Virus record (IMG/VR): IMGVR_UViG_3300046507_000899
Location: 1 to 33,765 of that record
Source: a virus
Strand: one strand, 5' to 3'
DNA: 33,765 bases
Shown here: in pieces, positions 18,703 to 33,222 of the stretch
Numbering within the stretch: the first letter of the stretch is position 1
How the letters are laid out: each line of letters starts with the position of its first letter
Translations under genes and position numbers: made by a program
The notes under the pieces: generated by a model
Databases searched by the model: none
The model's input: the letters and a program-made list of their open reading frames with translations, nothing else
Told to the model about the DNA's origin: nothing

Positions 18703-20241
18703 TTACCGGTCGTTTAGATAATCGTCGAGGTTGCTGTCTTGGCTTTCTGCTTGCGGCCTCACACCTACTGCCATGGCCAGCGCGACCATGCCATCGATGC
18801 GGCCTGTCGCCTTGCCTTTGACGAATTTGCGGTTCTCCGACGGATCCTTGACGACCGTCGCATTCGCAGCGCACATCGACAGCACCGGATGATTCTCGTG
18901 TCGCAGCTTTCGCGACAGCAGCAACGATTCCAGTTCGCGGATCGCCGGCGACATCGAAACGAAGCCCTGCCCGAACTCGACAAACAGCGCCAGCTCTTCC
19001 GGACTGAAACCGGCCCGCACCAACCACGGCAACAGGAATTTCATGTTGTAGCGGTCGAACGCCAGGGCGCGGACCGTGTACCGATCGAAAACCTGGCGCA
19101 GATGCGCCGCAATGAACTCGTACTCGATCGCGGCGCCCGGCGTCGTCTGCAGGTAGCCCTGTTGCTGCCACAAGTCGTAGGGAACTCGATCGGCCCGGGA
19201 TTTTTCAGCCAGTCCGGCCTCCGGTAGCCAGAACGTCGGTTCTACGCCCCAGTTCTCCTCCTGCTCGGAGATCATCACCAGCGCCGTCAGGTCGCTGACG
19301 CTGGATAGATCCAGGCCGGCAAACACTTCCGCGCCGCGCTCAAACGGCGCCGGCGCGCCGCCGTTCTCCTGCCACACCGAGCGCGTCACAAACGGGCTGC
19401 GCGCCTCGACGCGCTGGTTCAAAATCAGGTTGCGGTAGCCTGCCTCGGCGCTGGGCATGCGCTTCGCGTCCGACGCCTGCCGGAAGACCTCTTCCTTATT
19501 CATGAAGTCGTCGAAATGCGGGTTCGCCGCACGGATCGCCTCCTCGCTGAATGGGTCCAGGTCCAGAGGTGCCGTGCACAGCTCGACCTTGATACGCGGG
19601 TCGGCGCCGGTCAAGCCATCGTCGATCAACAGGCTGAGCAGGTCCGCATCGGTCGGCGCCTGCGTCGAAATTACGATCGACAGTGGCGATTCCTGGGCGG
19701 CGCTGGCCGTTTCCAGTGCCTCATACAGTTCCGACCGCGGCCCTTTCACCTGGCCCAGCTCGTCGTGCACCACAAACACGGGACTGAGGCCGTATGCCGT
19801 GGCCGCGTCAGCGCTGAGAGCGCGGTAAAGCGTGCCGATTTCCTGGCAGTGCAGCTGCTTGGCCGTGTCACGCACGCCCACATATTCGGACAGATCGGGC
19901 GACATGCGCACCACCTTAGCCGCCAGCGCGAACAAAATCGCCGCCTGATCGCGCGATTGCGCCGCACTGTAAAGCTGGCTGTTCGGCTTGGCCTCCGGTC
20001 CGCACAGGTGGAGCAGCAGCAGGAAGGCAGACAGCGCTGTCTTCGCGTTCTTGCGGGCCATCGACAGGATGAACACGCGCGTGGGCGAGTCGTAAATCCG
20101 GCAGATCCAGCGGCGCTGGTGCCTTGTCAATTTCACGGGCTTGCCGACCAGGCGCCCCTCGGGAATGCGACAATGCTCTTCGATCCAGGCGATGTTACGT
20201 TCGCCCCGGGTCAGTTTCTTTCGTCGAGTGCCAGTTCCCAC
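18703..20241 (-). CDS. terminase large subunit (TerL)
   Basis: 512 aa. The packaging motor: an N-terminal ATPase pumps DNA into the procapsid and a C-terminal RNase-H-like nuclease cuts it. Seen: a Walker A-like SMARKNAKT at 60-68 (the variant form of Terminase_1/HK97 TerL), Walker B FVVHDELG at 156-163 with its Asp-Glu, a coupling region with STQAPTDADL (192-201), and the nuclease start FAGLDLSSVSDLTAL with D312. A late KGKATGRIDGMVALAMAVG near the end also fits. The start is GTG 20241, inside the last 31 bases of TerS; AAGG is ten bases upstream. Confidence 0.94.
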   Translation of the reverse strand: MGTGTRRKKLTRGERNIAWIEEHCRIPEGRLVGKPVKLTRHQRRWICRIYDSPTRVFILSMARKNAKTALSAFLLLLHLCGPEAKPNSQLYSAAQSRDQAAILFALAAKVVRMSPDLSEYVGVRDTAKQLHCQEIGTLYRALSADAATAYGLSPVFVVHDELGQVKGPRSELYEALETASAAQESPLSIVISTQAPTDADLLSLLIDDGLTGADPRIKVELCTAPLDLDPFSEEAIRAANPHFDDFMNKEEVFRQASDAKRMPSAEAGYRNLILNQRVEARSPFVTRSVWQENGGAPAPFERGAEVFAGLDLSSVSDLTALVMISEQEENWGVEPTFWLPEAGLAEKSRADRVPYDLWQQQGYLQTTPGAAIEYEFIAAHLRQVFDRYTVRALAFDRYNMKFLLPWLVRAGFSPEELALFVEFGQGFVSMSPAIRELESLLLSRKLRHENHPVLSMCAANATVVKDPSENRKFVKGKATGRIDGMVALAMAVGVRPQAESQDSNLDDYLNDR

Positions 20242-20672
20242 GGTTTGCGTGCCTTTTTCTGATTGCCGATGGTGCGGCCGACCGTGGTCGGATGCTCGAC
20301 GGCCTGCCGCGTGATGCGTAGCCGCGTCGCCAGCGATGACGCCGCCCGGCTCTCGCGCTCGGACATGGCCAGCAAACGGTCGTAGCGTTTCAATCCGTCG
20401 TCATCGGCCAGCCAAGAGCGGTCGAAATTGATCAGCTCGTCGGCCAGCAGGCGCGCCTGCACGATGTGCCGGCAGTAGAGTTCCAGCAGTGGCGCATGCG
20501 TCGGCGTAAAGGCGCTGGCCGGCTGGTCGTTGACGACCTCGGCCCACACCAGCTGCTCGGAATCGCTCATGTGCAGCGGGGCGGCCAAGCGGCTTGCCTC
20601 ACGGACGAGTGGCGCGAGGCCCATGCCGACGGTTTCAAGCGCCGCCGCTGATTTTCTGCCTCGTGTCGCCAT
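20211..20672 (-). CDS. terminase small subunit (TerS, P27-like)
   Basis: 153 aa. Recognises the packaging site and feeds DNA to TerL. Helical and basic at the C-terminus. LRITRQAVEHPTTVGRTIGN and LLELYCRHIVQARLLADELI resemble P27-family small terminases. The gene overlaps TerL by 31 bases and follows a 123-bp gap after an HNH gene, as in HK97-like cos phages. The ATG at 20672 has no good SD within ten bases (an AAGG is 12 away), so translation may be weak. Confidence 0.82.
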   Translation of the reverse strand: MATRGRKSAAALETVGMGLAPLVREASRLAAPLHMSDSEQLVWAEVVNDQPASAFTPTHAPLLELYCRHIVQARLLADELINFDRSWLADDDGLKRYDRLLAMSERESRAASSLATRLRITRQAVEHPTTVGRTIGNQKKARKPWELALDERN

Positions 20673-20795: not shown

Positions 20796-21116
20796 CTAAA
20801 CCGGCCATCCATCCGGGCCCACGGTCTTCTTCGGCTGCGGCGCCGACTTTCCCTGTTCCTCTGCAGTCTTGGCATCGTGGCAGGGCTGGCAAATCGCCTG
20901 GAGGTTGCTCTCTTGATCCATGCGCGCTTGCGACCAGCGCAGCAGCTTTGCCGTCGCCTTGCACACGATATGGTCGACCGCAACGGCGAAGGTGACGCGC
21001 CCCTTGCGCTGGCATGGCTGGCACAGACCACAGTCGCGGGCCATGATGCGCTTGCGGATCCGGTCCCAGGCAGCGCCGTAGCCGCGGGACTGGCGGGATT
21101 CTTTCGACCAGGCCAT
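20796..21116 (-). CDS. HNH endonuclease, packaging-associated
   Basis: 106 aa. It holds an HNH/ββα-metal core: two Cys pairs CGLCQPC and AICQPCHDAK, a central AVDHIV with the catalytic His, and ESNLQAICQPCHDAKTAEEQ, where Asn and final His complete H-N-H. Proteins of this sort beside terminases help cleave cos and are needed for packaging in HK97-like phages. The start MAWSKESRQSRGYG at 21116 overlaps the stop of the gene before (TGATG). Confidence 0.9.
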   Translation of the reverse strand: MAWSKESRQSRGYGAAWDRIRKRIMARDCGLCQPCQRKGRVTFAVAVDHIVCKATAKLLRWSQARMDQESNLQAICQPCHDAKTAEEQGKSAPQPKKTVGPDGWPV

Positions 21117-21433
21117 CAGCCCGCGTGAATGCGATGCAGAACGAGTGCAGCAAAGCCGCACAGTACGAGCGCGCTCATAAAAGCACCGCCTGCCGCGCCG
21201 GATGCTGGGCGCCAGAACTGCCACCACGGCGCCGGCTGCCACGGTTGCACCTCTTCGAATGCGCCAAGCACCGAAAGGTCGACGTCATTGCTCAGCACCA
21301 TCACGCGGACGTCAGGCGGCATCTTCGACTGCACGTACCCGGCCAGGACTTCGCGCTGGTCCTTGGAGAGGATGCAGTGCGCTTGCACCACCAGAGTATC
21401 GCCAGCGCGCAGGCGCAGCTTGGTGATGCTCAT
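21116..21433 (-). CDS. small phage protein with C-terminal membrane helix, unknown
   Basis: 105 aa from MSITKLRLRAGDTLVVQAHC. The N-terminal half looks like a small beta/helix domain (ILSKDQREVLAGYVQSKMPP then DVRVMVLSNDVDLSVLGAFE). The Trp-rich linker WQPAPWWQFWRP leads to a hydrophobic helix GGAFMSALVLCGFAALVLHR near the end. Topology suggests a membrane-tethered protein with a cytoplasmic N-domain. An ATG at 21448 would add five residues. It overlaps the HNH start. I recognise no function; its place in the late operon suggests a structural, lysis-timing or exclusion role. Confidence 0.62.
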   Translation of the reverse strand: MSITKLRLRAGDTLVVQAHCILSKDQREVLAGYVQSKMPPDVRVMVLSNDVDLSVLGAFEEVQPWQPAPWWQFWRPASGAAGGAFMSALVLCGFAALVLHRIHAG

Positions 21434-21882: not shown

Positions 21883-21896
21883 GGCGAACCTCAAAT

Positions 21897-21931
21897 AAAA
21901 AAGCCGCCATCGCAGTGATGCGGCTGGCGGC
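21897..21931 (-). terminator. intrinsic terminator early in the late operon
   Basis: On the minus strand GCCGCCA (21925-21931) pairs with TGGCGGC (21903-21909) around a 15-base partly structured loop, then T tract TTTTTT. It sits between the 100-aa gene (stop 22008) and the Ig-like gene. Confidence 0.75.
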
Positions 21932-22007
21932 GAACGCCTGGCTCGGACCAGGCAGGAGACACTTGAGCGGCGCCTGGGATCTCCCGGGCCTGAACCACTT
22001 TCCTCGG

Positions 22008-22310: not shown

Positions 22311-22339
22311 GGCAACCTTTGAAAGTGTGAGAACAATGC

Positions 22340-22369
22340 AAAAAGCCCACGACCGCGAGGTGGTGGGCT
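22340..22369 (-). terminator. leader terminator just downstream of the late promoter (tR'-like)
   Basis: On the minus strand AGCCCAC pairs with GTGGGCT around a 12-base loop that can extend the stem, followed by TTTTG. It lies about 40-70 bases after the expected start of the promoter at 22418-22446 and before the first late gene. It also closes the PEP-CTERM gene at 22471. Confidence 0.85.
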
Positions 22370-22417
22370 TCTGCTGCCGAACTGCTTGACGCAATTTCGA
22401 CGTGTATATAAAAAGCG

Positions 22418-22446
22418 ACTATACCGGACGGGTTTGTCCGGGGCAA
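22418..22446 (-). promoter_or_regulatory. candidate late promoter (pR'-like) with inverted repeat in the spacer
   Basis: On the minus strand -35 TTGCCC (22441-22446), a 17-base spacer and -10 TATAGT (22418-22423). The inverted repeat CCGGAC-N6-GTCCGG (22424-22441) fills the spacer and reaches into the -35. In lambda the Q binding element lies between -35 and -10 of pR'. A terminator follows at 22340-22369, and a T-rich stretch (CGCTTTTTATATA) occupies the initial transcribed region, where lambda has a Q-dependent pause. Confidence 0.68.
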
Positions 22447-22470: not shown

Positions 22471-22995
22471 CTACTTCGCGCGACGCCGAGCCGCGAAGGT
22501 GATCAGGCCCAACCCAGCCAACAGCATGCCATACGTCTCAGGCTCGGGAATTGGCGTTAAGGCTGTCACTTTTATATCCACGGGCGAGCTGATCCAGTTT
22601 GTCCTCGCGCCGGGCACTGTATAAACGAAATAGCCAGTGTCAGCATAGACGCTTTCGAAAATAAAGCCATCTCCGCTGCCGGCACGCAATCCACCAGGAA
22701 TTGGAGTGCTAACAATTACCATGTACTCATCGGAATAGAGCCCGATTTCAGAAAGATCAAAACGGTGTCCATCGAAAGTTAAATTTACACTTTTGATACT
22801 GTCCCATTGAACACCTTCGCCAGCGGCAGAATAGACAATTGAACCTTTGATCAGATCTTCTGGTGCTGGTATCGAGGATTGCGTGGAAATATCCGTAAAG
22901 TTTGATGCAGTAAAGTCAATTCTGAAATCTTCCGCCTTGGCCCCACTAACGCAAAAAAAGAAAGCTGCCGACAGTGCCGCGATGCGCATCAACAT
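22471..22995 (-). CDS. PEP-CTERM sorted exoprotein, prophage moron
   Basis: 174 aa. It has an N-terminal signal peptide (RIAALSAAFFFCVSGAKA, cleavage likely near 21) and a canonical C-terminal sorting tag at about 150-174: PEPETYGMLLAGLGLITFAA followed by RRRAK. PEP-CTERM proteins are exported, cut by an exosortase at the tag and usually placed on the surface or in exopolysaccharide. The middle part is beta-rich and resembles no enzyme I know. GGGGA seven bases before the ATG at 22995 fixes the start. It has an AT-rich promoter region upstream and a terminator downstream, the layout of a phage moron. Its codons are clearly more AT-rich than the neighbours, which suggests separate acquisition. 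Confidence 0.88.
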   Translation of the reverse strand: MLMRIAALSAAFFFCVSGAKAEDFRIDFTASNFTDISTQSSIPAPEDLIKGSIVYSAAGEGVQWDSIKSVNLTFDGHRFDLSEIGLYSDEYMVIVSTPIPGGLRAGSGDGFIFESVYADTGYFVYTVPGARTNWISSPVDIKVTALTPIPEPETYGMLLAGLGLITFAARRRAK

Positions 22996-23068
22996 AACCG
23001 TTCCCCATATAGTTATTGGTGTTTTTATATTATCATATATATAAATAATTATTGGATTAATACCTTTT
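22996..23068 (-). promoter_or_regulatory. AT-rich region likely holding the moron promoter
   Basis: This short gap is very AT-rich in an otherwise GC-rich region. On the minus strand it includes GATAAT and TATAAA hexamers as possible -10 boxes, but no strong -35 at the right spacing. I infer an independent promoter for the PEP-CTERM gene without fixing its boxes. Confidence 0.45.
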
Positions 23069-24652: not shown

Positions 24653-24850
24653 TCAGCCCTCCTGAGCTGAGCCTTTACACATCACCGTCGCCGTTGTTGT
24701 GACTCGCAAGCCTTTCGATTCGATGGTGCTTACTTCGCCGCCATCTGCCCCTGTTTCAGAATCTTTCCCACAGTAGGAGCACTCCCCACGCGCCGCTGTT
24801 GTTTCCCGACCGGCGCGCTGTTCATTGCCGACTTGCTCAGCCCACGGCAC
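24653..24850 (-). CDS. possible small zinc-binding-like protein, uncertain
   Basis: 65 aa from GTG 24850, overlapping the primase stop by 14 bases. It holds RGECSYCGKDSETGADGG, a CxxC knuckle, and a later MCKG. An alternative frame in the same stretch encodes a 31-aa peptide (MNSAPVGKQQRRVG...). I cannot tell which, if either, is translated; the CxxC version reads slightly more like protein. Confidence 0.3.
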   Translation of the reverse strand: MPWAEQVGNEQRAGRETTAARGECSYCGKDSETGADGGEVSTIESKGLRVTTTATVMCKGSAQEG

Positions 24851-30961: not shown

Positions 30962-31084
30962 TTAAACCGCACATCCCGTCGCCAAACGGGGTGAGCAGCA
31001 AATGGCGGGGTTGGCGAACCGGTACACACGGAAACCGGCATACCCGAAGGTATCCCCACCACTGCCGCTCATGGAGAAGGTCAT
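30962..31084 (-). CDS. Icd-like short ORF within the immunity leader (possibly not translated)
   Basis: 40 aa, MTFSMSGSGGDTFGYAGFRV then YRFANPAICCSPRLATGCAV. This matches the pattern of widely annotated Icd-like peptides (GYAGFRV...ATGCAV), named for the P1 cell-division inhibitor gene, which overlap C4 antisense RNA. The conservation may be of RNA, not protein. Confidence 0.4.
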   Translation of the reverse strand: MTFSMSGSGGDTFGYAGFRVYRFANPAICCSPRLATGCAV

Positions 31085-32624: not shown

Positions 32625-32969
32625 TCAGTCCGTTATTTTGCTCAATTCTTCGACACATCGGCGGCATGCTTCGGCGCAATCTTTGCAATGTAGGTGCGAG
32701 TGCTTCGAGCACTCGTAAGCGCATGCCTTGCATACCTCAGCGCAGGAAAGCGAAATTAACGGCGCCATGGAGCTACCTCGGGCGAAGTAGCTTACCGCGA
32801 GCCGGCAAAATTGAGCGCAGTCGATATCTAATCCAATGCACGACGTCATCATCTTCACGTCTTCTTCTTGAAGGCATGCACTCGCACAGCGTTCACAGGC
32901 CAGGGCGCACTCGTTGCACGCGTTGATGAGGCTCTCAAAATGTGTGCTAACTTGGATGGAATTTGTCAT
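32625..32969 (-). CDS. cytosolic four-helix-bundle copper storage protein (Csp3-like)
   Basis: 114 aa with 16 Cys spaced along helices: CNECALACERCASAC (18-32), C44, C51 and C55, CAEVCKACAYEC (76-87) and CKDCAEACRRC (95-105), the DUF326 pattern. Csp proteins store many Cu(I) ions inside a tube of four helices lined with Cys. No Tat or Sec signal is present, so the cytosolic Csp3 form is likely. GGAG seven bases before the ATG at 32969 sets the start. It lies convergent with the DUF2158 gene, three bases apart, and could be host DNA or prophage cargo. Confidence 0.9.
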   Translation of the reverse strand: MTNSIQVSTHFESLINACNECALACERCASACLQEEDVKMMTSCIGLDIDCAQFCRLAVSYFARGSSMAPLISLSCAEVCKACAYECSKHSHLHCKDCAEACRRCVEELSKITD

Positions 32970-33222
32970 TTTTGATCTCCAGTTTCCTCGCATCTGCCAG
33001 TCAGATGCAGGAGTAAGCAAATCATCAATGAGATTGAATCTGAACGGTATCGGAGTAAAGAAATAAAATATGTAGGACCATTCCTGTAGTGTTATGGACG
33101 CAGAGCCACTGATTGAAACGCCAAGAATACGCAAACCTTCGCGCAGATGTCGAACCATTTTGGAAAACACCTTGTGCGCGGAAGCGGCCAGGTTGGCTCA
33201 GCTTCGGCCGACTGAGGTCGCA

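Follow-up and report, generated by a model that had tools for sequence, protein, structure and literature searches.

The window analysed here, an IMG/VR phage record taken at its full length of 33,765 bases, carries an intact gene for a predicted PEP-CTERM surface protein between its early and its packaging genes. This gene is probably a moron of lysogenic conversion, i.e., one that gives the exosortase of the host a substrate and so changes the surface or the exopolysaccharide of the lysogen. A sequence-only reading had proposed as much, and homologues at phage cargo slots, together with an exosortase in related genomes, now support it. Arguing for a moron are the signal peptide and tag, the place between the early operon and the large terminase gene (TerL), the variability of this slot, the recurrence of such genes at two slots, purifying selection on phage relatives, and the exosortase. 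Weighing against it are a stop codon in one prophage copy, a low occupancy of the slots, the lack of a close relative of the window gene, a poor promoter match upstream, and a host known by inference only.

The open reading frame of 174 aa fills positions 22471-22995 exactly, as first read, but its strand is corrected here to minus (22995 to 22471), the plus strand being closed. Its product, P0001, is the complete PEP-CTERM protein that had been described: it scores above the cut-offs of Pfam PF07589 (36.4 bits, cut-off 20.7, E 4.7e-9) and NCBIfam TIGR02595 (21.3 bits, cut-off 16). PHROG gave no match for P0001. By eye the N-terminus displays M-R, a hydrophobic stretch, and AKA before E, i.e., a predicted signal peptide, and the structure model has a helix at residues 3-16, within it. 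The coordinates of the features are in Table 1.

Table 1. Features of the PEP-CTERM gene and its surroundings in the window, with the records that carry such a gene at a second slot.
Feature	Position or record	Strand	Basis
PEP-CTERM moron gene P0001, 174 aa	22471..22995	-	ORF and translation, PF07589, TIGR02595
Predicted signal peptide, residues 1-21, MLMRIAALSAAFFFCVSGAKA	22933..22995	-	translation; aligned with signal peptides of 8 relatives
Ectodomain, residues 22-147 (~125 residues), beta-rich, no known family	22555..22932	-	family searches without the tag; low-confidence model (strands only); no PDB relative
PEP-CTERM sorting tag PIPEPETYGMLLAGLGLITFAARRRAK: PEP, hydrophobic helix, RRR, plus stop codon	22471..22554	-	PF07589, residues 148-172
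AT-rich upstream gap, 73 bp, 22% GC, GGGGAA ribosome site; presumed own promoter	22996..23068	-	composition, consensus scan
Intrinsic terminator downstream of the moron	22335..22375	-	fold -22.5 kcal/mol, z -5.1, then T run
Weak promoter-like site around inverted repeat CCGGAC-GTCCGG, candidate late promoter	22418..22446	-	consensus match at chance level
Last early-operon gene (Q position), 181 aa	23069..23614	-	relatives ahead of HNH-TerS-TerL in Bordetella phage PHB09, beside the HNH gene in Bcep176
HNH endonuclease, other side of the slot	20796..21242	-	
Terminase small subunit (TerS, by position)	20211..20672	-	82% to the G308 gene preceding TerL; TerS there in PHB09
Terminase large subunit (TerL)	18703..20241	-	phrog_9, E 6e-110
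Second-slot records	L284/L147, L286/L153, L288, L291/L171, L317, L318/L173, L154, L158, L164, L175, L177

P0001 also scores above the cut-off of NCBIfam NF038126, the FxDxF PEP-CTERM family (54 bits, cut-off 50). However membership in that family is rejected: the match comes from the tag alone, and the similarity of the ectodomain that the family calls for, including a central FxDxF motif, is absent. With the tag removed, neither P0001 nor the proteins of the phage contigs L001 and L240 have a match in NCBIfam or Pfam, thus the FxDxF label should not be applied to P0001. Chromosomal members of NF038126 (e.g., L071, L203) have ectodomains unrelated to that of P0001. As a separate observation on the model, unrelated PEP-CTERM proteins exceed its cut-off through the tag alone, and annotations that carry its name may therefore be unreliable.

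Judged from these searches, the ectodomain of P0001 and its relatives is a small family of its own, with conserved motifs, one near the mature start around DFRIDF, the other, G-[SY]-x-x-[FY]-S-A, farther along. An AlphaFold model built from five sequences displays strands only, and a PDB profile search with the ectodomain found no relative (best E 0.3). Alternatively, the ectodomain might act against neighbours as a secreted effector, or bind other phages as a decoy receptor, with the tag serving for release only; unrelated ectodomains swapped at one slot, as described below, do resemble competition modules. However no toxin or receptor fold was recognised, the confidence of the model (mean pLDDT 51) being too low for a fold search, and an effector or decoy appears very improbable.

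The gene lies inside the phage genome. The late region, on the minus strand, is of HK97 type and has endolysin and spanin genes at the left end, then tail genes, capsid, protease, portal, TerL, TerS and HNH (protease and portal were called by reading the translations). To the right of the slot are genes for a primase, a helicase, a ParB-like protein and an AlpA regulator, and a C4 antisense RNA. The PEP-CTERM gene has the last early-operon gene on one side and HNH-TerS-TerL on the other. It had been placed between a Q-like gene and the late promoter; the place after the last early-operon gene is confirmed, but Q is a positional guess, as the 181-aa gene has no Pfam match above cut-off and none in PHROG, and the late promoter is not supported, the consensus scan having found 2 sites where 1.3 are expected.

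The TerL of the window is 78% identical to that of Pseudomonas phage PAJU2 and 90% to that of a prophage in the Oxalobacteraceae genome G308, and the latter prophage has no PEP-CTERM gene in the slot. The slot is empty in Burkholderia phage Bcep176, where only HNH follows the Q-position relative, at the end of the record. In Bordetella phage PHB09 the genes between the Q-position relative and HNH-TerS-TerL include one for a BrnT toxin and one for a Rha regulator, and six IMG/VR relatives of the Q-position gene have other genes in the slot. As expected of a moron, the window gene is an extra gene among phage genes that all of these near relatives lack. On these comparisons the slot between early operon and terminase is a variable cargo site, and in the window a PEP-CTERM gene occupies it.

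No phage gene is recognised in the window to the right of about 31.1 kb, where a DUF326 gene is found, as might be seen if the PEP-CTERM gene were misassembled or belonged to host DNA flanking a prophage, and so lay outside the phage. However the gene is ~11 kb from the nearer end, with phage genes on both sides, and the same arrangement recurs around homologues on contigs of independent origin as well as on a 6.3 Mb contig from a genome. Thus a flanking or artefactual origin is disfavoured and can hardly hold.

Some other features of the window should be recorded. About 80 bases between slot and HNH, at 21886-21964, are 85% identical to the G308 prophage while the neighbouring DNA is not alignable; they are a candidate conserved control element or short leader gene. 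The C4 antisense RNA (30987-31076, minus strand; Rfam RF01695, 72.8 bits) is found here in a phage of HK97 type, with the AlpA gene nearby; C4 is the immunity RNA of P1/P4-type phages. A Betaproteobacteria-1 RNA (24702-24820, minus strand; Rfam RF02932, 87 bits), a class named without a function, lies just downstream of the primase gene. The DUF326 gene (32625-33170, minus strand), which encodes a cysteine-rich protein, is beyond the immunity region near the right end and may be host flank or further cargo.

The AT-rich upstream region and the downstream terminator ascribed to the gene are both there, and the terminator is strong (Table 1). The best sigma-70 match in the upstream gap agrees at just 8 of 12 positions. 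Codon use was said to be unlike that of the phage genes, and this holds: the gene has a GC of 0.49 against 0.62 for the window, and a GC3 of 0.50, where the other phage genes sampled lie at roughly 0.6-0.9. Three of the five chromosomal ectodomain relatives (L278-L280) are, however, GC-poor relative to their surroundings, and the upstream region is AT-rich in all five; since the composition is partly a trait of the gene family, odd codon use alone is no proof of recent arrival.

The gene is co-directional with the preceding early gene, 73 bp away, and its terminator closes before the late genes. This would also suit a protein transcribed with the upstream early operon and active during infection rather than in the lysogen, e.g., by blocking a second phage at the envelope or by preparing the envelope for lysis. 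However the PEP-CTERM genes of the second slot, and those of L165/L181, oppose their phage neighbours and would need promoters of their own; the chromosomal relatives are ordinary host genes; and surface sorting would be slow for a lytic role. An early lytic function is thus decidedly unlikely.

Relatives of the ectodomain are found on the viral contigs L001 (36-40% identity), L240, L241 and L243, and where the extent of the contig allows, they lie between a Q-type zinc-finger gene and the terminase. The TerL of L241 and L243 differs from that of the window. Seven of 392 Oxalobacteraceae genomes carry a relative, one copy each. The copy in genome G358 is in a prophage, where it comes after a Q-type gene and a cytochrome-like gene and is itself followed by TerS and TerL; it is a pseudogene, with a TAG stop directly after the signal peptide, thus the gene is dispensable in that prophage. 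The other genome relatives are single copies among ordinary chromosomal genes. Named phages and plasmids yielded no homologue of the window gene. Homologues in prophages, which the sequence-only reading had called for, therefore do exist, in phage contigs and in the G358 prophage at cargo slots, besides the chromosomal copies, and the ectodomain family is one of both hosts and phages. In the ectodomain tree, which was examined for a single phage clade, phage copies are in two places on long branches, so that the tree is compatible with one capture or with several.

Two neighbouring genes are of interest in themselves. A gene for a cytochrome-c-like secreted protein (L277, 8783-9625) is situated between the Q-type gene and the PEP-CTERM pseudogene of the G358 prophage. 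A methyl-accepting chemotaxis protein gene (L001, 7341-9068; L146, 13654-15381) immediately precedes the Q-type and PEP-CTERM genes and is possibly another surface or behaviour moron.

Selection was assayed on relatives, the window gene itself having no close relative on which it could be measured directly. Intact phage pairs display dN/dS values of 0.07-0.26, i.e., purifying selection: 0.26 (L240-L243), 0.24 (L147-L158), 0.07 (L150-L159, with dS near saturation), and 0.12 (L240-L241), 0.20 (L153-L171) and 0.17 (L165-L181), the last three being rough because each is based on just 10 to 19 substitutions. The pair that includes the pseudogene, L001-G358, has a value of 1.16. That value and the pseudogene, as well as the low occupancy of the slots by PEP-CTERM genes, would be expected of a neutral passenger, a host gene caught by chance, of no use and decaying, and with dozens of PEP-CTERM genes per host such a capture would be easy. 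However the window gene is unbroken and has a signal, a tag, a ribosome site and a terminator; the intact phage pairs are constrained; and among unrelated phages there are many with PEP-CTERM genes at the two slots. A neutral passenger is for these reasons unlikely.

The second slot emerged from an IMG/VR motif scan with PEPxTY[AG]M, which gave 61 stretches; a PEP-CTERM match over the cut-off is present in 43 of 49 records checked. This slot is in the structural genes, beside a head-completion gene (MLxTETGxGLPxAESYASVA, or equivalent), and in 11 phage contigs (Table 1) the PEP-CTERM gene is opposite in direction to the structural genes. Two of these records are less clear-cut, as the motif of L317 is a PEA variant and the contig of L288 ends at VIPEP. 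There is no detectable similarity among the ectodomains of L147/L158, L153/L171, L154, L164, L173 and L175/L177, therefore at least six ectodomain types occupy the second slot. The L171 phage has a PEP-CTERM gene in both slots. Because second-slot genes oppose the late operon, promoters of their own are implied, and we infer that these genes are probably expressed in the lysogen; the PEP-CTERM genes of L165/L181 are likewise oriented against their phage neighbours. Occupancy by PEP-CTERM genes is 0/6 for the near Q relatives of the window, 2/32 for the other Q type, and ~6/38 at the second slot.

Other phage PEP-CTERM genes are found elsewhere. In a third group (L150/L166, L159/L178, L168/L155) the phages are of a different kind and share a conserved PEP-CTERM gene, whose protein (L150, 9290-9991; also L166, L159, L178, L168, L155) displays the motif GGSLSNxxITxDDFxFTRTCGGIGVCAPLDASG. 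Two other phage PEP-CTERM families have no homologue among named phages. The third-group protein is absent from named phages. The PEP-CTERM gene at L174 10523-11317 is on a contig with PhoH-like and ClpP-like genes, probably of a virulent phage, and a similar protein is encoded in Rugamonas fusca (L067, 3375-4106). Several metagenome phage contigs have a PEP-CTERM gene, of one family throughout, beside a tail-fibre-like gene (L183, 6245-7066; L185, 8737-9558).

The check for a host exosortase was run on related genomes. A match is present in all 22 (12 carrying PEP-CTERM relatives and 10 carrying ectodomain or TerL relatives), above the family cut-off in 21; in one Nitrosomonas copy the exosortase gene is interrupted by a stop. 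No exosortase is encoded in the phage record itself. The TerL relative and an immunity-region match in genome G378 (88% over 119 bp) point to a host that is probably a member of the Oxalobacteraceae, and comparison of the flanking DNA gave only short, scattered matches, to Oxalobacteraceae.

A lysogenic-conversion moron may thus be pictured as follows. A temperate phage would take a cargo gene from the PEP-CTERM repertoire of its hosts, probably Oxalobacteraceae, and keep it in the variable slot between early operon and packaging genes. Transcription would start in the AT-rich upstream region of the gene and stop at its own terminator, which would make expression in the lysogen possible. Sec would export the product, and the host exosortase, of the kind seen in the genomes of relatives, would recognise the tag. 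The ectodomain would then end up at the cell surface or in the exopolysaccharide, whether released or fixed there, and the surface of the lysogen would be altered. The benefit may be the exclusion of competing phages or altered aggregation and biofilm, which we hold about equally likely. Swapped ectodomains at one slot fit phage exclusion; aggregation is a plausible outcome because floc formation in the related bacteria Aquincola and Zoogloea depends on PEP-CTERM proteins (PMC9850573, PMC9012009).

That related viruses have such genes at the same two spots, with differing outer parts, suggests that viruses routinely alter the surface of their host cells by means of them. A wider proposal is more tentative, and we incline somewhat against it: temperate phages of exosortase-bearing bacteria would systematically carry interchangeable exosortase substrates, at two fixed slots and with the same tag but with unrelated ectodomains swapped, so that each lysogen shows a phage-specific surface protein as a phage-exclusion or kin-type marker. 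Many environmental Gram-negative bacteria have dozens of PEP-CTERM proteins, mostly without known function. That they turn up as phage cargo under selection, their ectodomains swapped at fixed slots, points to a concrete role in phage competition or in a change of the lysogen surface, and prophages may contribute to the rapid turnover of PEP-CTERM proteins among related strains. Lysogens with and without one defined PEP-CTERM gene would be a natural test of function.

The PEP-CTERM/exosortase (EpsH) protein sorting system (Haft et al. 2006, PMC1569441) shares with P0001 the signal peptide, C-terminal PEP motif, hydrophobic helix and arginine tail; it is known from chromosomal genes, whereas here a phage carries the substrate gene and the exosortase must come from the host. 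A single PepA-type PEP-CTERM protein can alter aggregation through exopolysaccharide binding (PMC9850573, PMC9012009). The PepA-type proteins of Zoogloea and Aquincola have the same kind of tag as P0001, but another ectodomain, and are chromosomal and RpoN-controlled. The likeness to the FxDxF family is, as described above, one of the tag, the ectodomains being unrelated. In the literature outside subscription papers, no account of phage-borne PEP-CTERM morons was found, only incidental co-mentions; thus the surface moron as a kind is known, while the exosortase route and the slots with swapped ectodomains were not found there. Prophage morons for lysogenic conversion and superinfection exclusion include lambda Lom and Bor and the O-antigen conversion genes. 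To our knowledge, none of the known prophage morons is sorted by an exosortase. The window gene is like morons of the Lom and Bor type in being an extra gene for a predicted surface protein, with its own terminator and a presumed promoter, in a variable slot, and missing in near relatives. It differs in that Lom, Bor and the O-antigen genes use lipoprotein, outer-membrane or glycan routes, whereas the predicted route of P0001 is by way of the exosortase.
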